Assembly (NCBI RefSeq): GCF_029960785.1 | Contig: NZ_JASBQE010000030.1 | Span: 1-64,000, forward strand | Length of the DNA: 64,000 bases | From: Polyangium sp. 15x6 | GTDB lineage: Bacteria > Myxococcota_A > Polyangia > Polyangiales > Polyangiaceae | Reading direction: 5' to 3' | Shown here: positions 1,215 through 33,909 of the stretch, one piece after another | Numbering within the stretch: position 1 is the first letter of the stretch | Layout: each line of letters starts with the position of its first letter | Made by a program: the position numbers and the translations under genes | The notes under the pieces: model-generated | The model's database searches: none | What the model was told of the DNA's origin: nothing | What the model saw: only the letters and a program-made list of their open reading frames with translations

Positions 1215-2096
1215 TCATTGCCCCTCCTTTGGGCTCCGCTCGGACCCGAACCGCACTACCATTGCATGTCCATAAACCCGCTTCGCCGTCCCGCCCCCGT
1301 AATACGCCGCCATCCTCTCCTCGGTTAACCACGTCGTGACAATCGTCCGCAGCCGCGGCTCCTTGTGCCGGTAATCGATCACCTCCCGCGTCCCTGCCAC
1401 CCGATCCGGAATCCACCCCGACCCCTCGGGAGCCGAATCAAGCTCGTCCCCCACGTCATCCAGCACGAGCACCGTCGCCGCCTTCGCCACCTCCCGCGCC
1501 GCCTCCGCCGCCACCGAATCCCCCCGCAGCGCCCGCGCCGCCACGAACCGCGCCCCCCGAGCGATCCGCACTTGCTCCGGTAGCGCCACCTCCACGTGGA
1601 CCGGCCTCCTCGGCGCCCCCGTTTTCGCGAGCGGCCTCGAAGGAGCCGCATTCCCCACGAGCGCCGCCCGCACCTCGGCGGGAAGAGCATCGAACGTCCC
1701 ACGCTGGATCACGTGCCGCAGCACGACGCACGCCGCCGACGTCTTCCCCACCTGCGGCTCCGGCCCGAGGATCACCACGTTTTTCCCCGCCTCGAAAGCC
1801 GCCATCAGCTCTCGCCGTACCCGGGCCCACCCCTGGATCCGCTCGTTTTTCAGCCGCTCCGCGACCTCGTCCCCACCCGGTACCGCCCACGCAAACCGCG
1901 CTGGGATCGAGCGCAGCGCCGGACGCAGCTCCGCATCGAATGCCGCCCGCCGCTCCTCGGTCGCGCACGCCTCGCAGATCCCAGGCAGCCGCGACATCCC
2001 CCCGCACCCGTGCCCGCACGGATACGCGCCCTCCCGCGGCATCGGGAAGAGCTCCCAATCCATGACCGCCGATGCCGAATAACTCGCGCCCGTCAT
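1215..2096 (-). CDS. DnaC/IstB-like helicase-loader ATPase of a mobile element
   Basis: A 293-aa protein. The N terminus has four cysteines (27, 31, 41, 44) spaced like a zinc knuckle. An AAA+ core follows, with a Walker-A-like GPEPQVGKT (111-119; one residue longer than the usual P-loop) and Walker B VLVLDDVG (about 209-216). Phage and plasmid proteins of this type load the replicative helicase at an origin opened by an initiator. The start overlaps the stop of the preceding helix-turn-helix replication gene by 4 nt, so the two are translationally coupled, as lambda O and P are adjacent. A transposon IstB-type ATPase is the alternative, but no transposase is nearby. A second in-frame ATG lies at codon 12. 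Confidence 0.7.
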   Translation of the reverse strand: MTGASYSASAVMDWELFPMPREGAYPCGHGCGGMSRLPGICEACATEERRAAFDAELRPALRSIPARFAWAVPGGDEVAERLKNERIQGWARVRRELMAAFEAGKNVVILGPEPQVGKTSAACVVLRHVIQRGTFDALPAEVRAALVGNAAPSRPLAKTGAPRRPVHVEVALPEQVRIARGARFVAARALRGDSVAAEAAREVAKAATVLVLDDVGDELDSAPEGSGWIPDRVAGTREVIDYRHKEPRLRTIVTTWLTEERMAAYYGGGTAKRVYGHAMVVRFGSERSPKEGQ

Positions 2097-26968: not shown

Positions 26969-29572
26969 TCAAGCGCCCGTCGCGAGCTCGCCGGCGGCCT
27001 CGTCGACCGCGTCGACGACGATCTGCCCTCGATCGACCGAGAGGAGCGCGACCGATCCCGAGGGCAGCTCGCCGCGCAGGATCATCTCGGCGATCGGCGC
27101 CTCGACGTGGCGCATGATCGCGCGCTTCATGGGGCGCGCGCCGAGTCCCTCGTCGAAGCCGCCCTCGGCGATGAGCACGTCGAGCACGGTCGGCTCCACG
27201 TCGAGCCGGATGCCCTTCTCCTCGAGCCCGCGGCCGAGCCCCGCGAGCAGCCTCCGCGCGACCTCCTTCACCTCGGCCTTGCCGAGCGGGCCGAAGACGA
27301 GCACCTCGTCGATGCGGTTGTAGAGCTCCGGCGGCAGCGCCCCGCGCGCGGCGGCGAGCATCGTGGATTCGAGCTTGTCCGGCGAAACCTGCGTCGCGCC
27401 GCGGGAAAAACCGACCGAACGTTCGCTCTTCAACGCCCCGGCCTCGGCCGCGCCGAGGTTCGAGGTCAGCACGATGACCGTGTTCGTGAAATCGACTCGC
27501 CGGCCGCGGCCGTCGGTCATGCGGCCCTCGTCGAAGACCTGGAGGAAGGCTTCGAGCACGTCGCGGTGCGCTTTTTCGATCTCGTCGAGCAGGATCACCT
27601 GGTAGGCGCGGCGGCGCACGGCCTCCGTGAGCTGACCGCCGGCCTCGTGCCCGACGTACCCGGGCGGCGCGCCGATGAGCCGCGCCGTCGCGTGCGCCTC
27701 GCTGTACTCGGAGAGGTCGAGCCGCGTCATCGCGTCGGCCGAATGGAAGAGCGACTCGGCGATGGCCTTCGCGGTCTCCGTCTTGCCGACGCCCGTCGGG
27801 CCGAGCAGGAGGAACGTGCCGAGCGGCCGATCCGCGCGAATCCCCGCGGCATTGCGGCGAAGGACCCTCGCAATGCGGGCGAGCGGCGCCGTGTGGCCGA
27901 CGACCCGATCGGCGAGGAGTTTTTCCAGATTGAGCATTCGCTCGCGGTCGGTCTCGAGCAAGCGCTCCTCGGGGATGTCGGCGAGGCTCGCGAGGACCTC
28001 GGCGACCTCGGGAGGACCGACCGGCGGGAGCTTTCCGGCCCCGGCGCGCCTGCGGGCGCGGGCGCCGGCGAGGTCGAGGATCCCGATCGCCTTGTCGGGC
28101 AAGGCGCGGCCCGGCAGATATCGCACGGACCACGAGACCGCGGACGCGATCGATTCGTCCGTGTACCCGAGCCCGTGGTGGGCGCCGAGGCCCTGACAAA
28201 CCTGTTTGCAGAGGAGGAAGGCCGACGCCTCGTCCGGCTCCTCGATTTCGACGACGGAGAAGCGCCGCGCGAGGGCGGGGTCGGGCTCGAAGGTGCGCCG
28301 GTGCTCCTCGGGCGTCGTGGCGCCGACGAGGCGGAGATCGCCGCGAGCGAGGGCGAGCTTGATCTCGGCCGTCGCCTCGTCGAGGCCGCCGGAGAAGAGC
28401 TCGTGGATCTCGTCGACGAAGAGGATGATCGCGCGCCCCTCCTCGCGAATCTCGCGCAAAATGGCGTTCATGCGCTCGGCGAGCGCGCCGCGCGTGCCGG
28501 TGCCGGCGACGAGCTCGGAGACCGCGACCTCGACGAAGAGCCGCGCCGCGGACGGATCCCGATCGGCCTCGCGGGCGAGGCGCTCGGCGATGCCACGCGC
28601 GACCGAGGTTTTCCCGACGCCGGCCGGGCCCACGAGCAGGCAGCTATTCTGGTTTTTCTTGGCCAGGATATCGAGCGTCGCGTCGACCTCGGCGTCGCGG
28701 CCGATCACGGGATCGATCTCCCCGAGGCAAGCCGCGAGCGTGAGGTTTTTCCCGAGCGCGGCGAGCGCCGGCGTCTTCGCGCGATCGAGCGCGAGCGGAT
28801 GCCCTTCCGGAATCGTGGGCCCGGGGCCGAGGTCTTTGCGCGCGTTGGTCTTTCGGTCCTTCTCGGCCGGCTTTGCGGGCGCGGTCGCGGGGAGCGGGAT
28901 CGGCGTCGCGGTCGCGGTGGCCTGCGGCGGGGGCGGCGAGGGCGTCGCGCTCGGCGGCACCGCTTGCGCCTTCGTGGGCGGACGTTGCTCCTGGCCGAGC
29001 CGACCCGGCGGCGGGAAGAGCGGGACGGTCACGCCCGTGCCCGTCGGCCGCTTCGGGGGCGTGGGCGCGGGTTTGTCGAGGTCGATCCGCGTCGGCGTAC
29101 GCGGGGCCGGCCGGGGCTCGGCCTCCGTGGTTTTTCCGCCCGCCATTGGGGGCACACGCCGGGCCGCGACGACGCCGAGCGAGAGCTGCATGGCCGCCGT
29201 GCGCAGCCGCCCCGTATCCACGCCGGCCTGCACGAGGGCGCGGTGCGCGGCGGAGCTGCGATCCGCGAGCAGGGCGAGGAGCAGGTGCAGCGCGTTCGGC
29301 TCCCCGAGCGGCGCACGCTTGCCGAGCTCGCGGGCCGCGACGGCGGCGCGGGCGAGGGGATCGGGCGTGTCCTCGTCGAAGGATCGACCGGCCTTGAGCA
29401 GCGTGTCCGCGTCGAGGCGCCGCTCGCGGAGCAGCTCGCCGGCCTGGCCATCACGCGAAGCGATGGCGGCGAGGAGGTGAACGCTCGTCGGGCGCTCCTT
29501 GCGCGCAGCGGCCAGATCCTGGGCGAGCTTGCGCAGCGTGACGAGCTCGGCCTGCGAGCGGGGGATCGTCAT
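26969..29572 (-). CDS. ClpA/ClpC-like double-AAA+ unfoldase with long Pro-rich linker
   Basis: An 867-aa protein. Two Clp N repeats (VHLLAAIASRDG at ~31; ALHLLLALLADRS at ~94) are followed by a proline/alanine-rich linker (~145-260), AAA-1 with Walker A GPAGVGKT (315-322) and Walker B ILFVDEIHE (~383-391), and AAA-2 with Walker A GPTGVGKT (591-598) and VILLDEIEKAH. There is no long ClpB-type middle coiled coil. SVGFSRG lies where ClpP-contact loops (IGF/IGL) occur, so protease partnership is possible, but no clpP is nearby. The ~115-residue linker is unusual for ClpA/ClpC. Start: ATG 29572; the longer frame is not supported. Confidence 0.92.
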   Translation of the reverse strand: MTIPRSQAELVTLRKLAQDLAAARKERPTSVHLLAAIASRDGQAGELLRERRLDADTLLKAGRSFDEDTPDPLARAAVAARELGKRAPLGEPNALHLLLALLADRSSAAHRALVQAGVDTGRLRTAAMQLSLGVVAARRVPPMAGGKTTEAEPRPAPRTPTRIDLDKPAPTPPKRPTGTGVTVPLFPPPGRLGQEQRPPTKAQAVPPSATPSPPPPQATATATPIPLPATAPAKPAEKDRKTNARKDLGPGPTIPEGHPLALDRAKTPALAALGKNLTLAACLGEIDPVIGRDAEVDATLDILAKKNQNSCLLVGPAGVGKTSVARGIAERLAREADRDPSAARLFVEVAVSELVAGTGTRGALAERMNAILREIREEGRAIILFVDEIHELFSGGLDEATAEIKLALARGDLRLVGATTPEEHRRTFEPDPALARRFSVVEIEEPDEASAFLLCKQVCQGLGAHHGLGYTDESIASAVSWSVRYLPGRALPDKAIGILDLAGARARRRAGAGKLPPVGPPEVAEVLASLADIPEERLLETDRERMLNLEKLLADRVVGHTAPLARIARVLRRNAAGIRADRPLGTFLLLGPTGVGKTETAKAIAESLFHSADAMTRLDLSEYSEAHATARLIGAPPGYVGHEAGGQLTEAVRRRAYQVILLDEIEKAHRDVLEAFLQVFDEGRMTDGRGRRVDFTNTVIVLTSNLGAAEAGALKSERSVGFSRGATQVSPDKLESTMLAAARGALPPELYNRIDEVLVFGPLGKAEVKEVARRLLAGLGRGLEEKGIRLDVEPTVLDVLIAEGGFDEGLGARPMKRAIMRHVEAPIAEMILRGELPSGSVALLSVDRGQIVVDAVDEAAGELATGA

Positions 29573-29676
29573 GATGGGGAGGGGGGTCTCACGGACGCGC
29601 GGCGTGGGACAAGTTTTCGGCCGGGGACGGGGCGGGGCGTTCGTGTAGGATGGGCCGCGGAGAGCACCCATCCGTG

Positions 29677-30444
29677 ATGACACGACGAACCGCCCTTCTT
29701 TTTCTGGCTTCGCTCGGGCTCCTCGTCTCGCGCGAGGCGCGGGCCGACCTCGTCGACCCCGGGGAGAAGCGCGTCGACTACACGTTCGAGCTGGAGAACG
29801 CCTCGAGTTTCCCCGAGTACGTGTTCTTGGCGCATCCGTACACGACGTCCTTCGGCGCGCCCATGCCCGAGCTCGGCGTGCTCGGCGGGTTGCCGCTGAT
29901 GGTGGGGAAGTACGTCCAGCCCGTCGTCTATGCGATGAAAAGGTCCGATTTCGAGGCGTCCTCGCTGCGCAAGCTGGAGGGGGCGGCCCTCGAAATGTTC
30001 TTCGCGGAGGGAAAAGGGCTCGTCTCGTCGGGGCTGACGATCCGGCCGCAGCATTTCGTGCCCGACCGCTGGCCCGTGAAGGGAATTCATGACGTCGTCC
30101 GGGTCGAGAAGCTCGAAGCAGGCGTGTTCGTCGCCCGGCTCGCGAAGGTCGTCTACTCCATGGACGACGGCAAGAGCGTGACCGTCGATTACCCGGCCGA
30201 TGGAAAACGGCCCGATCCGCCCGGCGTCGCGTCGGCCCCGGCGCGATCCGAGCCCGCAGAGCCGCCTCCGACGAGCGCGACCGCCGATCCTGCCGAGACC
30301 ACGCCGGTCGCGCCCGCGCACGCGCCGAGCGGCTGCGGCGGGTGCGCCGTCAAAGGCGAGGAGGGCGCCGCGGGGTTCGTGTTCCTGCTCGGCGTCTTCG
30401 CGGCGTTCCGAGCGCGGAGGCGCGGCGGCTCAATGGCGCCGTGA
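29677..30444 (+). CDS. Exported protein with MYXO-CTERM-like sorting tail
   Basis: A 255-aa protein. A signal peptide (RRTALLFLASLGLLVSREARA) precedes a domain of about 150 residues of unknown family. A Pro/Ala/Thr-rich linker then leads to GCGGCA, a hydrophobic segment (AAGFVFLLGVFAAF) and RARRRG. Cys-rich motif, single helix and Arg cluster are the layout of MYXO-CTERM surface-sorting signals. The 3' end overlaps the convergent selenoprotein gene by 15 bp. The ATG at 29677 directly precedes the basic n-region of the signal peptide and is preferred over 29650. Confidence 0.75.
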   Translation: MTRRTALLFLASLGLLVSREARADLVDPGEKRVDYTFELENASSFPEYVFLAHPYTTSFGAPMPELGVLGGLPLMVGKYVQPVVYAMKRSDFEASSLRKLEGAALEMFFAEGKGLVSSGLTIRPQHFVPDRWPVKGIHDVVRVEKLEAGVFVARLAKVVYSMDDGKSVTVDYPADGKRPDPPGVASAPARSEPAEPPPTSATADPAETTPVAPAHAPSGCGGCAVKGEEGAAGFVFLLGVFAAFRARRRGGSMAP

Positions 30445-30999
30445 TTCGACGAGCGCGCGGTCGACGATATCGAGGAGCTCGGCGGTGCTCGGCCGGTCGG
30501 CCATGCTCTCGCCGATCTGCCGGAAGAAGATCCGACCATCCGGCAAGATGACGAAGGTCGAGGGGACCGCGATGTCCTGGCCCTGCATGGCCACGCCGTA
30601 CGCGAGCGCGGTCTTCAAGCCGTCGTCCCGCAAGAGCGGGTAATGCACGTCGAGCTTCGCGGCGAGCTCGCGGGACTCCTCCTCGGAATCGACGCTGATC
30701 GCCGCGAGGCCCACGCCGAGCCTCCGGAATCGATCGTTCATTCTTGCCAGCTGCCCGAGCTGGCTACGACAGTACGGTCACCAGTGGCCGCGGTAAAACA
30801 CCACGACCGCGGGGCCTTTCTGGGTGAGGCTCGCCAGGGTGACGGTCTCGCCCGTGTGCGACGGGAGCGAGAATGCGGGCGCCGGGGCCGAGGTCGCGAG
30901 CGCGGGTCCGCGCGTCTTCAGGGTGCAGCCGGAAGCGACGGCGAGGAGCGCGGCACCGAGGAGAAAGAGGCGGCGCGAAGCGCGGATCGGCGCGGACAT
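30430..30999 (-). CDS. Lipoprotein peroxiredoxin-like selenoprotein (Sec at UGA codon 74)
   Basis: A 189-aa AhpC/TSA (redoxin) family protein read through one in-frame UGA (30778-30780). Before it: lipobox AVASGC, PAPAFSLPSHTGETVTL and VVVFYRGHW. After it in the same frame: PYCRSQLGQL, ISVDSEEESRELAAKL, VPSTFVILPDGRIFF. Cysteine homologues read FYRG-W-CPYC here, so UGA replaces the active-site Cys of the CxxC pair (UxxC). A 7-bp stem with a CGGGC loop starts 13 nt after the UGA, as bacterial SECIS elements do. Conservation on both sides argues against a broken gene. SelB, SelA and tRNA-Sec are not in the window. Likely a thiol peroxidase or disulfide reductase on the envelope. Confidence 0.85.
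30746..30764 (-). promoter_or_regulatory. Bacterial SECIS-like hairpin
   Basis: On the minus strand GCCAGCT pairs perfectly with AGCTGGC around loop CGGGC. The loop guanines lie about 22-24 nt after the UGA, within the spacing known for SelB-binding hairpins, and GG in a small apical loop is the usual recognition feature. Confidence 0.75.
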
Positions 31000-31050: not shown

Positions 31051-32004
31051 TCAGAAGCCGCCGCCGGTGGCCGTCCCCGTGGGCAGCGGTCGCTTCGGCG
31101 TGGGGGACGGGCTGGGGTTCGGCGAGGGCGTGGCGCCCGCGGTGGCCTCGCGCTTGACGATGAACTCGACCAGCGCGTCGCACCGGCCGGAGCTCGTGCC
31201 GCCGGTCTCGTCGAGGCAGGAGACGACGAGCGCGCGGCCCTTCGTCACCTCGGTGACGAGGAGCGTCGAGGTCCAGGCTTGTCCGTCGACGCGCGTGGAC
31301 CATCCGGGTTTGTCGGCGATCGTCGGTTTTCCGCGCGTCCTCCGCATCTTCGGCGATTGCTGCTCGAATCCGGTCAGGATCGCGTCGGCGAATTTCTCGT
31401 CCACGGCGCGCACGGGCATGTCCGTGACCTTGAGCGTTTGCTTGTCGCAGACGATCGAGACCGTGCGAATGCCGTCTTTCTCCTCGGCGGTCTTCTTGCA
31501 ATTGCTCATTGCGTCGCCGCCGCCGGGGGCGAACATGATCGGATAGACGACCTTGACCACGCCGCCCTCGGGCGCGGGGAACGTCAGGCTTTCGACGGCC
31601 GCGAGGACACATTTCACCACGTCGGGATCGGGGAGGGTCGCAGGTGAGTCTTCCCCGGCCTGGCCGACCTTGCCGTCCTTGCCGATGACGAACCGGATCG
31701 CGATGCGACCTTCGAGGTTCGGGGTCTTTTGCAGGCCCTCCTCGTAACAGGCCCGGAGCGCTTTGAAGTTGCCGCGGATGACCTTCTGGATTTCGGCCGG
31801 CTCGAGCTTGCCCTCCGGGGCGTCGAGCGCTCCGATCGCGTTCGTTTCCTTGGTCGGGGGCTCGGCCTTGGCCTCGGGCGCGGGGGGCGCCTCGGCGGGC
31901 GGGGCGTTCGCCTCCGGGTTCGGCGGCGCGTCGGCCGGCGGCGTGGCGCCGGCGCAGCCGACGAGCAGGAGGGCGAGGGACGAGGGCCAAAGGACGCGGA
32001 GCAT
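31051..32004 (-). CDS. Lipoprotein with AgmX/PglI C-terminal-type domain
   Basis: A 317-aa protein. The lipobox is LLVGC (Cys17), followed by a Pro/Ala/Glu-rich linker to ~residue 65. Residues ~70-160 match the myxobacterial AgmX/PglI domain: VIRGNFKALRACYEEGLQ, then GRIAIRFVIGKDGKVGQA, then VVKCVLAAVESLTFPAPEGG and VVYPIMF. Proteins with this domain occur with gliding and envelope machines in myxobacteria. The remaining ~150 residues are unassigned and end in a Pro/Thr-rich tail. The selenoprotein gene follows 51 bp downstream in the same direction. Confidence 0.85.
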   Translation of the reverse strand: MLRVLWPSSLALLLVGCAGATPPADAPPNPEANAPPAEAPPAPEAKAEPPTKETNAIGALDAPEGKLEPAEIQKVIRGNFKALRACYEEGLQKTPNLEGRIAIRFVIGKDGKVGQAGEDSPATLPDPDVVKCVLAAVESLTFPAPEGGVVKVVYPIMFAPGGGDAMSNCKKTAEEKDGIRTVSIVCDKQTLKVTDMPVRAVDEKFADAILTGFEQQSPKMRRTRGKPTIADKPGWSTRVDGQAWTSTLLVTEVTKGRALVVSCLDETGGTSSGRCDALVEFIVKREATAGATPSPNPSPSPTPKRPLPTGTATGGGF

Positions 32005-32302: not shown

Positions 32303-32388
32303 TTGATTGACCACCCCTTCCGCGCGAGAGAACGTAGACGCGTGCCGGACGGCATGGTTCGTCCGGGCACGATGACTTGGAGGCTTAC

Positions 32389-33909
32389 GTGAAGCGTCGC
32401 GATTTTCTCAAGGGCGCAGGGCTCGTCGCCGCGACGGCCGCCAGCGGCCTCGGCGTATCGCTCTGGGGCATGCGGCAAGCGCGTGCGTTCGGAGAGGTGC
32501 CCAAGGAGGCCGAGGGCGCCATGCTGCCGCTCGAACTGCAGGCCGAAAATATCCTCGAGATCTTTCTTTACGGCGGCGTGAGCCAGTACGAGTCGTTTTA
32601 CTGCGTGCCCTCGCTCGGAGAGGCGAGCGGGACGCAGTGGCACGCGTACCTGCAGTCCGGTCACGTGCAGGCGGCCGTCGACCAGTGTGCGTTTCAAGGC
32701 CCGCTGACCGAGCCCTTCGCGGCCGACTCGATGGGCCAAGCCGTGCACCTCGGGCCCTACGTGATGCCCCTGCGTGAGCGGCCCGATGTGATGGAACGGA
32801 CACGCGTCTCCATCTCGGCGCACGACCTCGAGCCACACGAGGGCGCGATCCCCATGATGCTCGGCGGTCGCGGGCTCGGGCATCCGGCGTTCTCGGGGCT
32901 CGGCGCGCACGTGCAGCGTTACTTCCTCGAACGGTTCGCCGAGCCGGGGCGCGCGCCGTACTCGTATGCGCTCATGTCGAACGGCGCGAACGGGCTGCCG
33001 ACGGACAACGTTCGCAGCGTCGTGTCGATCGGAATGCACCCCGGCGCGGCGCGCCCGCTCGCCATCAAGGTCGACGCGGCGGGTGACCTCACGAGCCTGC
33101 TCGCCCGCGGGACGATCGGGCAGAACCGCGCGCAGTACGACGCGCTGATGCAGGGCTACATCGATCGCTACCACGAGCGGCTGCGCTGGAGGGGGCAGGC
33201 CAATCCGCTGCGCGCGCCACGCCTCGGCGAGCTCGAAGCGGCGTCGAGCTCGATCGCGAACGCGCAAGCGATCCAAGGCGTGCTCGAGCCGCAGTTCTTC
33301 ACGAAGGTCCCCGGGTCGAACTGCGGGGACAACTCGAACACCGACGCGATGACGATGAACCTGAAGCTCGCGGCGCACTTGCTCCGGCACCCGACGGTGC
33401 CCGCGAAGTACGTGTGCATCGTCGACACGGGGCTCATCTCGGCCGACGGCGGCGGCGGGTACGACACGCACGGCGAGAACTCGTTCACGCAGGCGCGGAA
33501 CCTGTCGCACACGCTCCGGCAGCTGCTCTCGGTGGTGAACGCGCCGGGCGAGAACAACCCGGCGAAGCTCGACCTCGACAAGACGCTGATCGTGCTGACC
33601 ACGGAGTTCGGGCGCACGCCGTACAAGCAAGGCAACCAGGGTCGGAATCACTGGCCGTACGGCTTTCCGGTGGTGTTCATCGGCGGGCCGGTGCGGCCCT
33701 CGGGCAAGGGCGTGTTCGGCGCGTGCGGAGAGGACGGGCGCGCGACGATCGCGTCGACGCCGCAGGAAAACCGCATGGCGGCGCTGCTCTCGCTGGGTAT
33801 CTGGCCCTTCGCGCAGGAGAGCTTCAACGTCTCCGACGTGCCGGGCGCGACGACGGAGATCGAGGCCGCGAAGCTCGTGCAGCAGCGGCAGCTGGGGGTG
33901 GTGGCATGA
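32389..33909 (+). CDS. Tat-exported DUF1501-like protein
   Basis: A 506-aa protein starting at GTG 32389, with GGAGG only 5 nt upstream; the TTG at 32377 would overlap that site. It begins with a twin-arginine signal (KRRDFLKGAG, hydrophobic stretch, QARA). DUF1501 landmarks from the alkaline-phosphatase-like fold include GGGGYDTHGEN and LIVLTTEFGRTPY. Homologues in planctomycetes and myxobacteria are paired with cytochrome-c-like DUF1549/DUF1553-type proteins. The next gene overlaps by 4 nt. Substrate unknown. Confidence 0.85.
   Translation: MKRRDFLKGAGLVAATAASGLGVSLWGMRQARAFGEVPKEAEGAMLPLELQAENILEIFLYGGVSQYESFYCVPSLGEASGTQWHAYLQSGHVQAAVDQCAFQGPLTEPFAADSMGQAVHLGPYVMPLRERPDVMERTRVSISAHDLEPHEGAIPMMLGGRGLGHPAFSGLGAHVQRYFLERFAEPGRAPYSYALMSNGANGLPTDNVRSVVSIGMHPGAARPLAIKVDAAGDLTSLLARGTIGQNRAQYDALMQGYIDRYHERLRWRGQANPLRAPRLGELEAASSSIANAQAIQGVLEPQFFTKVPGSNCGDNSNTDAMTMNLKLAAHLLRHPTVPAKYVCIVDTGLISADGGGGYDTHGENSFTQARNLSHTLRQLLSVVNAPGENNPAKLDLDKTLIVLTTEFGRTPYKQGNQGRNHWPYGFPVVFIGGPVRPSGKGVFGACGEDGRATIASTPQENRMAALLSLGIWPFAQESFNVSDVPGATTEIEAAKLVQQRQLGVVA

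Follow-up and report, generated by a model that had tools for sequence, protein, structure and literature searches.

A probable peroxiredoxin-like UxxC selenoprotein with a predicted lipid anchor, encoded across an in-frame UGA in Polyangium sp. 15x6

In a stretch of 64,000 nucleotides of Polyangium sp. 15x6 (contig NZ_JASBQE010000030.1), hereafter the window, two open reading frames lie in one and the same frame and are separated by a single UGA codon, which raises the question of whether the gene is broken or whether its UGA encodes selenocysteine (Sec). The initial annotation, which had proposed an envelope selenoprotein, placed both frames correctly at 30430-30999 and left unstated the strand, which is the minus strand. 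With UGA read as Sec, 30999-30430 (minus strand) specifies a product of 189 residues, MSAPIRASRRLFLLGAALLAVASGC...VVVFYRGHW-UGA-PYCRSQLGQL...ESRRH-UGA, whose only Cys or Sec residues are the lipobox Cys25, Sec74 and Cys77 (Table 1). The two flanks of the UGA had both been described as conserved redoxin sequence. This was borne out for the joined segments, which matched the Pfam AhpC-TSA profile with 99.5 bits, and for the segment 3' of the UGA by itself (57.5 bits; cut-off 26), but the 5' segment by itself stayed below that cut-off (22.2 bits, E 1.4e-4).

Table 1. Features of the selenoprotein locus and of a second candidate in the same genome (positions are those of the window unless a contig is named).
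Feature	Position	Strand	Remarks
UxxC selenoprotein gene, Prx-like/TlpA-like, predicted lipoprotein	30430..30999	-	PF00578 99.5 bits, PF08534 80 bits
Cys25 of lipobox VASGC, predicted lipidation site	30925..30927	-	pattern match
Predicted Sec, first position of UxxC (FYRGHW-UGA-PYC)	30778..30780	-	sole internal stop, codon 74
Cys77, second residue of UxxC	30769..30771	-	lines up with the peroxidatic Cys in peroxiredoxins of this genome
Predicted bacterial SECIS, 7-bp stem GCCAGCT/AGCTGGC, 5-nt loop CGGGC	30746..30764	-	loop 20 nt and stem 13 nt past the UGA
Pro146, invariant in 27 aligned rows	30562..30564	-	at the Trx-like cis-Pro site, where Prx have Arg
Natural stop codon, likewise UGA	30430..30432	-	
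AgmX/PglI C-terminal domain protein	31051..32004	-	upstream, ends 51 nt before the start codon
MYXO-CTERM-tail protein	29650..30444	+	convergent, 15-nt overlap with the selenoprotein 3' end; 20.6 bits, cut-off 20
Second UxxC candidate selenolipoprotein, TlpA/ResA-like, HPT-U-SAC	L092 469-1059 = G000:C74:9668-10258		

We analyzed whether relatives share the interrupted frame. A family search in 108 genomes (E 1e-15) returned 28 matches in 24 genomes, in which the codon-74 site is UGA in 22 matches (20 genomes) and Cys in six; Cys also occupies the site in 25 further, more distant loci. The UGA form was present in all six genomes of the genus Polyangium, and six of the UGA rows lie at 31–40% identity. 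Disruption of the sequence after the UGA in close relatives had been named as evidence against a selenoprotein; the frame is, on the contrary, intact in relatives, and its dN/dS past the UGA was 0.15, 0.13, 0.19, 0.45 and 0.27 in five between-species comparisons within the genus. Judged by these ratios, the codons past the UGA are under purifying selection. Since the same codon recurs in 22 of the 28 matches and is followed by sequence with dN/dS values of 0.13–0.45, the in-frame UGA exceeds what chance would produce.

The machinery for selenocysteine, a search for which had been proposed as a check, was found complete with regard to the four components named. The genome (13.38 Mb in 275 contigs, 98% complete) encodes a tRNA-Sec with a UCA anticodon (71.3 bits; cut-off 47), SelB (318.3 bits over two pieces), whose gene adjoins that of tRNA-Sec in divergent orientation, SelA (490 bits) and SelD (392 bits, without an in-frame stop). 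Across the genomes compared, selA exceeded its cut-off in 19 of the 20 with the UGA gene versus 17 of the 88 others (Fisher 2e-10), and selB in 18 of 20 versus 17 of 88 (Fisher 4e-9), both values being uncorrected for relatedness. With regard to the exceptions, UGA genome G080 had no selA or selB match but a tRNA-Sec of 69.4 bits, G019 had no selB match, and tRNA-Sec was not above cut-off in G019 and G053; all three are fragmented assemblies, and G019 and G053 are also less complete. Altogether, tRNA-Sec was above cut-off in four of the ten genomes tested (G013, G015, G039 and G080). The Cys-only genomes G041, G062, G063 and G081 gave no match to selA or selB and no tRNA-Sec above cut-off, and 17 selA-positive genomes were without such a UGA gene at E 1e-15.

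As a further signature, a 7-bp stem with a GG-containing 5-nt loop had been predicted 13 nt past the UGA, and exactly this element (GCCAGCT/CGGGC/AGCTGGC) is found there. According to excerpts of PMC13188914, bacterial SECIS elements have a loop of 3–9 nt, a stem of 4–16 bp, a G at loop position 1 or 2, a spacing of 16–37 nt and a minimum free energy (MFE) of -7.5 kcal/mol or lower. The window gene lies within all these limits (a 5-nt loop with G as its second base, a 7-bp stem, a spacing of 20 nt and -10.8 kcal/mol), and the N1-N2 loop pair usual in SECIS elements is unformed in it (C-C). An unbroken hairpin inside the published limits was present in 20 of 22 UGA genes compared with 3 of 31 Cys homologues, counts from which L049-L051 were excluded as repeats of L023, L022 and L024, and L076 was excluded from the Cys set as it lacks the motif. 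The energy limit was missed by the UGA genes L026 (-7.4 kcal/mol) and L040 (-4.1 kcal/mol), while the Cys genes inside all limits (L046, L054, L060) carry unrelated hairpins. A SECIS consensus, CAGCT-[AC]G[GT][GTC][CG]-AG[CT]TG, could be drawn from 21 of the 22 UGA rows.

Whether selection acts on this hairpin as RNA was approached in several ways. Its stability was unexceptional against synonymous resampling (p = 0.110 for the window gene; p < 0.05 in 2 of 22 UGA genes), which we attribute to the Gln-Leu-Gly-Gln-Leu codons pairing among themselves in any case. In the alignment of 21 UGA genes, four of the seven stem pairs never vary, five rows have G-C or U-A as the second pair instead, and the outermost one is A-U in one row and broken in 11; the core CAGCT...AGCTG is thus almost invariant, so that covariation carries little information. 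Cells changed on both sides numbered 6 of 147, whereas shuffles gave 1.4 and none of the 500 reached this count; the covariation score was 0.156 versus at most 0.059 in slid controls. In total, three of five measures (cells paired, cells with two-sided change, covariation score) exceeded all 500 shuffles, and two lay within them, namely pairs with two-sided change (2; 136/500) and further pair types (4; 250/500). The better sign of RNA constraint at the hairpin is codon choice. A final G is seen in the stem Leu codon of all 21 shared-hairpin rows and of L048, compared with 148 of 386 Leu codons in the rest of these genes; GGC encodes the loop Gly in one of 19 rows, compared with 192 of 292 Gly codons outside the loop, the rows in these counts being related and not independent. 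When a SECIS model (R1) was run on the own genome, this gene was recovered with 63.8 bits, in a first look at which 150 of 14771 candidates were scored. Two weak R1 matches (23.7 and 18.1 bits) were discarded, as the DNA has no UGA at the right place. The SECIS consensus is compact and strongly conserved, and can be used for finding further selenoproteins.

The machinery, the co-occurrence with selA, the conservation of the UGA and the fit of the SECIS element together make a real selenoprotein very probable, and we are highly confident that the gene belongs to the known peroxiredoxin-like (Prx-like) thiol:disulfide oxidoreductase (UxxC) kind. An in-frame stop, considered alone, would also be expected in a pseudogene arisen by nonsense mutation or in a sequencing error, but the same UGA stands in 20 family genomes, i.e., in independent assemblies, and with selection past the UGA, the hairpin and the Sec machinery also speaking against it, this explanation is exceedingly improbable. 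Hardly more credible is that the UGA is a genuine stop behind a 73-residue lipopeptide, with a separate protein starting at the ATG at 30741: such an ATG does exist and opens a 103-aa ORF (30430-30741), yet the stretch between UGA and ATG, which contains the conserved PYC together with the greater part of the following helix, would be lost, the Cys homologues continue across the site with Cys, and the hairpin and the selA co-occurrence would be left unexplained. We give the same very small credence to insertion of another amino acid without selenium, by near-cognate read-through or a code change. Although UGA is known to be leaky in many bacteria, this gene itself terminates in UGA, its homologues carry Cys at the site and not Trp or Arg, and it tracks selA. 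Conservation, hairpin, Cys homologues and selA tracking thus led us to reject all three, and the selenoprotein reading is followed below.

What kind of enzyme this selenoprotein might be was addressed with structure and alignment. The AlphaFold model (mean pLDDT 87.9, low in the first 25 residues) had both peroxiredoxin (AhpE) and ResA neighbours in Foldseek, whereas a sequence search of solved structures ranked ResA and thioredoxin-like proteins highest and had peroxiredoxins, too, among its 41 matches. Peroxiredoxins are defined by a PxxxT/SxxC motif and a catalytic Arg. When the protein was aligned with four peroxiredoxins that this genome encodes, Sec74 paired with the Thr of PxxxTxxC and Arg70 with its Pro, and Pro146, inferred to be in the cis form, matched the Pro found in TlpA-like proteins. 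The UGA had been described as standing at the redox cysteine of AhpC/TSA proteins; it does stand at the first Cys of a CxxC, where true peroxiredoxins have their Thr rather than the peroxidatic Cys. The Pro, Thr and Arg of the peroxiredoxin active-site type are therefore all replaced (Arg70, U74, Pro146), and we do not retain the designation of the protein as a peroxiredoxin, since the features that define one are missing.

A true membrane-bound seleno-peroxiredoxin, with Sec as the peroxidatic residue, would be in keeping with the AhpC-TSA score and with the peroxiredoxins, BcpB and AhpE among them, that head the Foldseek matches by E-value. This alternative is nevertheless improbable, if less so than those above, considering the position of Sec at the Thr of PxxxTxxC, the substitution of Arg70 and Pro146 for the Prx Pro and Arg, and the rank of ResA and thioredoxin-like proteins among the best sequence matches of solved structure; moreover, the known Sec peroxiredoxins are TxxU and not UxxC, according to the portion of PMC1088965 available. 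Classical peroxiredoxin identity is thus unlikely, although Sec may confer some peroxidase activity without a Prx site. From the UxxC motif, Pro146 and the aligned active site, we read the protein as a TlpA/ResA-like thiol-disulfide oxidoreductase, and its sequence fits the Prx-like thiol:disulfide oxidoreductases of the UxxC kind. No NCBIfam model reached its cut-off with the window protein (14 families listed), and the branch is an uncurated subfamily, new here, that fits none of the curated family models searched.

In the mechanism that we propose, SelB and Sec-tRNA-Sec, together with the downstream hairpin, would decode UGA74 as Sec, as suggested by the machinery present in the genome and by the conserved anatomy. 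We predict that the product is exported and fixed to the membrane via the lipidated Cys25; its thioredoxin-fold domain would then serve as an envelope thiol-disulfide oxidoreductase. There, the Sec74 selenolate would attack an oxidized substrate (a disulfide, a sulfenic acid or a peroxide), Cys77 would then form a selenenylsulfide with Sec74, and an envelope reductant would return the enzyme from this selenenylsulfide to its starting form. We consider this thiol-disulfide reaction of the Sec74/Cys77 protein likely.

Anchoring to the envelope via lipidated Cys25 is likewise probable, and the membrane tether deduced from the lipobox in the initial annotation stands as a prediction. The lipobox pattern used, PS51257, was matched by 18 of the 22 UGA rows and by four of the six Cys rows of the family, so that the lipobox does not go with Sec specifically. 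The residue equivalent to Cys25 and Sec are spaced by 48–51 residues in 12 rows (L021-L031, L034). The pattern was missed by four UGA rows (L032, L033, L035 and L036): L033 has Pro at -2, with its near-copy L034 matching, and the remaining three show, by eye, a hydrophobic N-terminal stretch instead. An RR pair ahead of the hydrophobic stretch is common in the rows. The SRRLFL of the window protein looks Tat-like by eye; its sole NCBIfam signal match was TIGR02811 with 13.7 bits (cut-off 48.45), and two relatives had none.

The genomic neighborhood was compared in 14 wider loci and the window, with ORFs chosen by a rough GC3 rule, and no adjoining gene was common across genera. Within the genus of the window, the window and L078 have neighbors in common, as have L080-L082 in genus g48. 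In particular, a homologue of the upstream AgmX/PglI gene lies beside the selenoprotein gene in L078 (G089, same genus) and was found in none of the 13 wider loci of other genera; the remaining shared neighbor matches are more than 1 kb away. A promoter and terminator scan found nothing, and an Rfam scan of the window returned one tRNA only. Further out in the window, we observed a Clp-type double AAA ATPase (26969-29683, minus strand), which stayed under the cut-offs of the NCBIfam models for ClpA, ClpB and ClpV, and a DUF1501 protein whose Tat signal is weak (32377-33909, plus strand).

The history of the Sec residue was inspected in a tree built from 22 rows with UGA and 31 with Cys, 19 of its 50 inner branches being uncertain. 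The UGA/Cys label needs five changes on this tree, two of them forced by well-supported branches. One UGA row, L048 (G051:C424; UGA at 1675-1677, minus strand), is nested in a Cys clade (support 97/82 and 99/88) made up of longer CxxC proteins with the lipobox pattern, and its hairpin is unlike the shared one. Both observations point to an apparently independent Cys-to-Sec change in L048, as far as sequence and tree can indicate. L048, being of another clade with a differing hairpin, was excluded from row sets A1 and A2, and of the 26 non-Polyangium loci that one search returned, A1 includes just 6. The repeats L049-L051 were left out of the tree as well.

The own genome was surveyed for PF00578, PF00384 and selD. 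Two of its 20 AhpC-TSA matches contain a UGA, and the second one is, judging from its sequence, a candidate for another UxxC selenolipoprotein, new here (Table 1). Close copies were found in four of the six genomes of the genus, each with UGA at the site; of the remaining genomes, G085 had no match and G086 a 35% match without a stop. Outside these copies, the match in G105 (42% identity) has UGA at the site, its other UGA being the terminal stop, and that in G046 (46%) has Cys. The own copy shows a long hairpin past the UGA, with a loop lacking the expected G. During the search for this second candidate, three UGA codons were set aside as ordinary terminal stops, one each in L115 and L133 and the second one in L109.

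None of the seven molybdopterin oxidoreductase (PF00384) matches, one of which spans just the profile end, has an in-frame stop, and neither does selD; there is thus no sign of a Sec-FdhA or Sec-SelD in this genome. As of 2006, by the section of PMC1794560 consulted, every selenoproteome contained one or the other. It is conceivable, although we regard it as doubtful, that large-genome soil myxobacteria keep the Sec machinery for envelope thiol redox and not for formate dehydrogenase or SelD. If this were true, membrane-anchored UxxC selenolipoproteins (the window protein and the second candidate) would repair or reduce envelope proteins.

Our literature search on selenoproteins of myxobacteria, Sorangium or Polyangium returned nothing on topic, judged by title, and that on lipobox, Tat or [NiFeSe] selenoproteins found no text. 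Anaeromyxobacter is itself a myxobacterium. It is listed with 11 selenoproteins in an extract of PMC1794560. What this locus adds is that a seemingly broken gene is very probably a conserved selenoprotein in its bacterial family, and it suggests that an anchored thiol-disulfide enzyme can make use of Sec on the outer face of the cytoplasmic membrane. Precedents for envelope selenoproteins are the Tat-exported Sec formate dehydrogenases and the lipid-anchored [NiFeSe] hydrogenase, enzymes that are unrelated to the window protein. We see the finding as an extension and not as a new principle.

Compared with the Sec peroxiredoxins (TxxU; PrxU, NF040737), the window protein belongs to the same superfamily and scores 35 bits versus a cut-off of 270, its Sec stands three residues earlier, and the Prx Pro, Thr and Arg are absent. 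Its best NCBIfam match, the SelL-related redox protein NF040769, gave 56.8 bits versus a cut-off of 120. ResA, TlpA and DsbE are envelope-tethered thiol-disulfide oxidoreductases, the tether being only predicted for the window protein. They share with it the fold, the position of the CxxC and the Pro at the cis-Pro site, and differ in that it has Sec for the first Cys and FYRG-W for FWA-W, with NCBIfam scores far under the cut-offs. The closest known system is the Prx-like family with UxxC replacing TxxU, described by 2005 in the passages seen of PMC1088965; as Prx-like UxxC selenoproteins were already known then and are also listed in parts of PMC1794560, PMC2398784, PMC9312934 and PMC13188914, the word unusual in the initial annotation was overstated. 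Judging from the same partial texts, the Prx-like UxxC/UxxU selenoproteins ('Prx-like 1', from marine metagenomes) have in common with the window protein PF00578, the UxxC and a SECIS just downstream, and Prx-like UxxC members occur, as here, in Deltaproteobacteria in the older sense. Compared by description with these known members, the protein reported here has a lipobox or hydrophobic N-terminus and represents a subfamily from one myxobacterial family.
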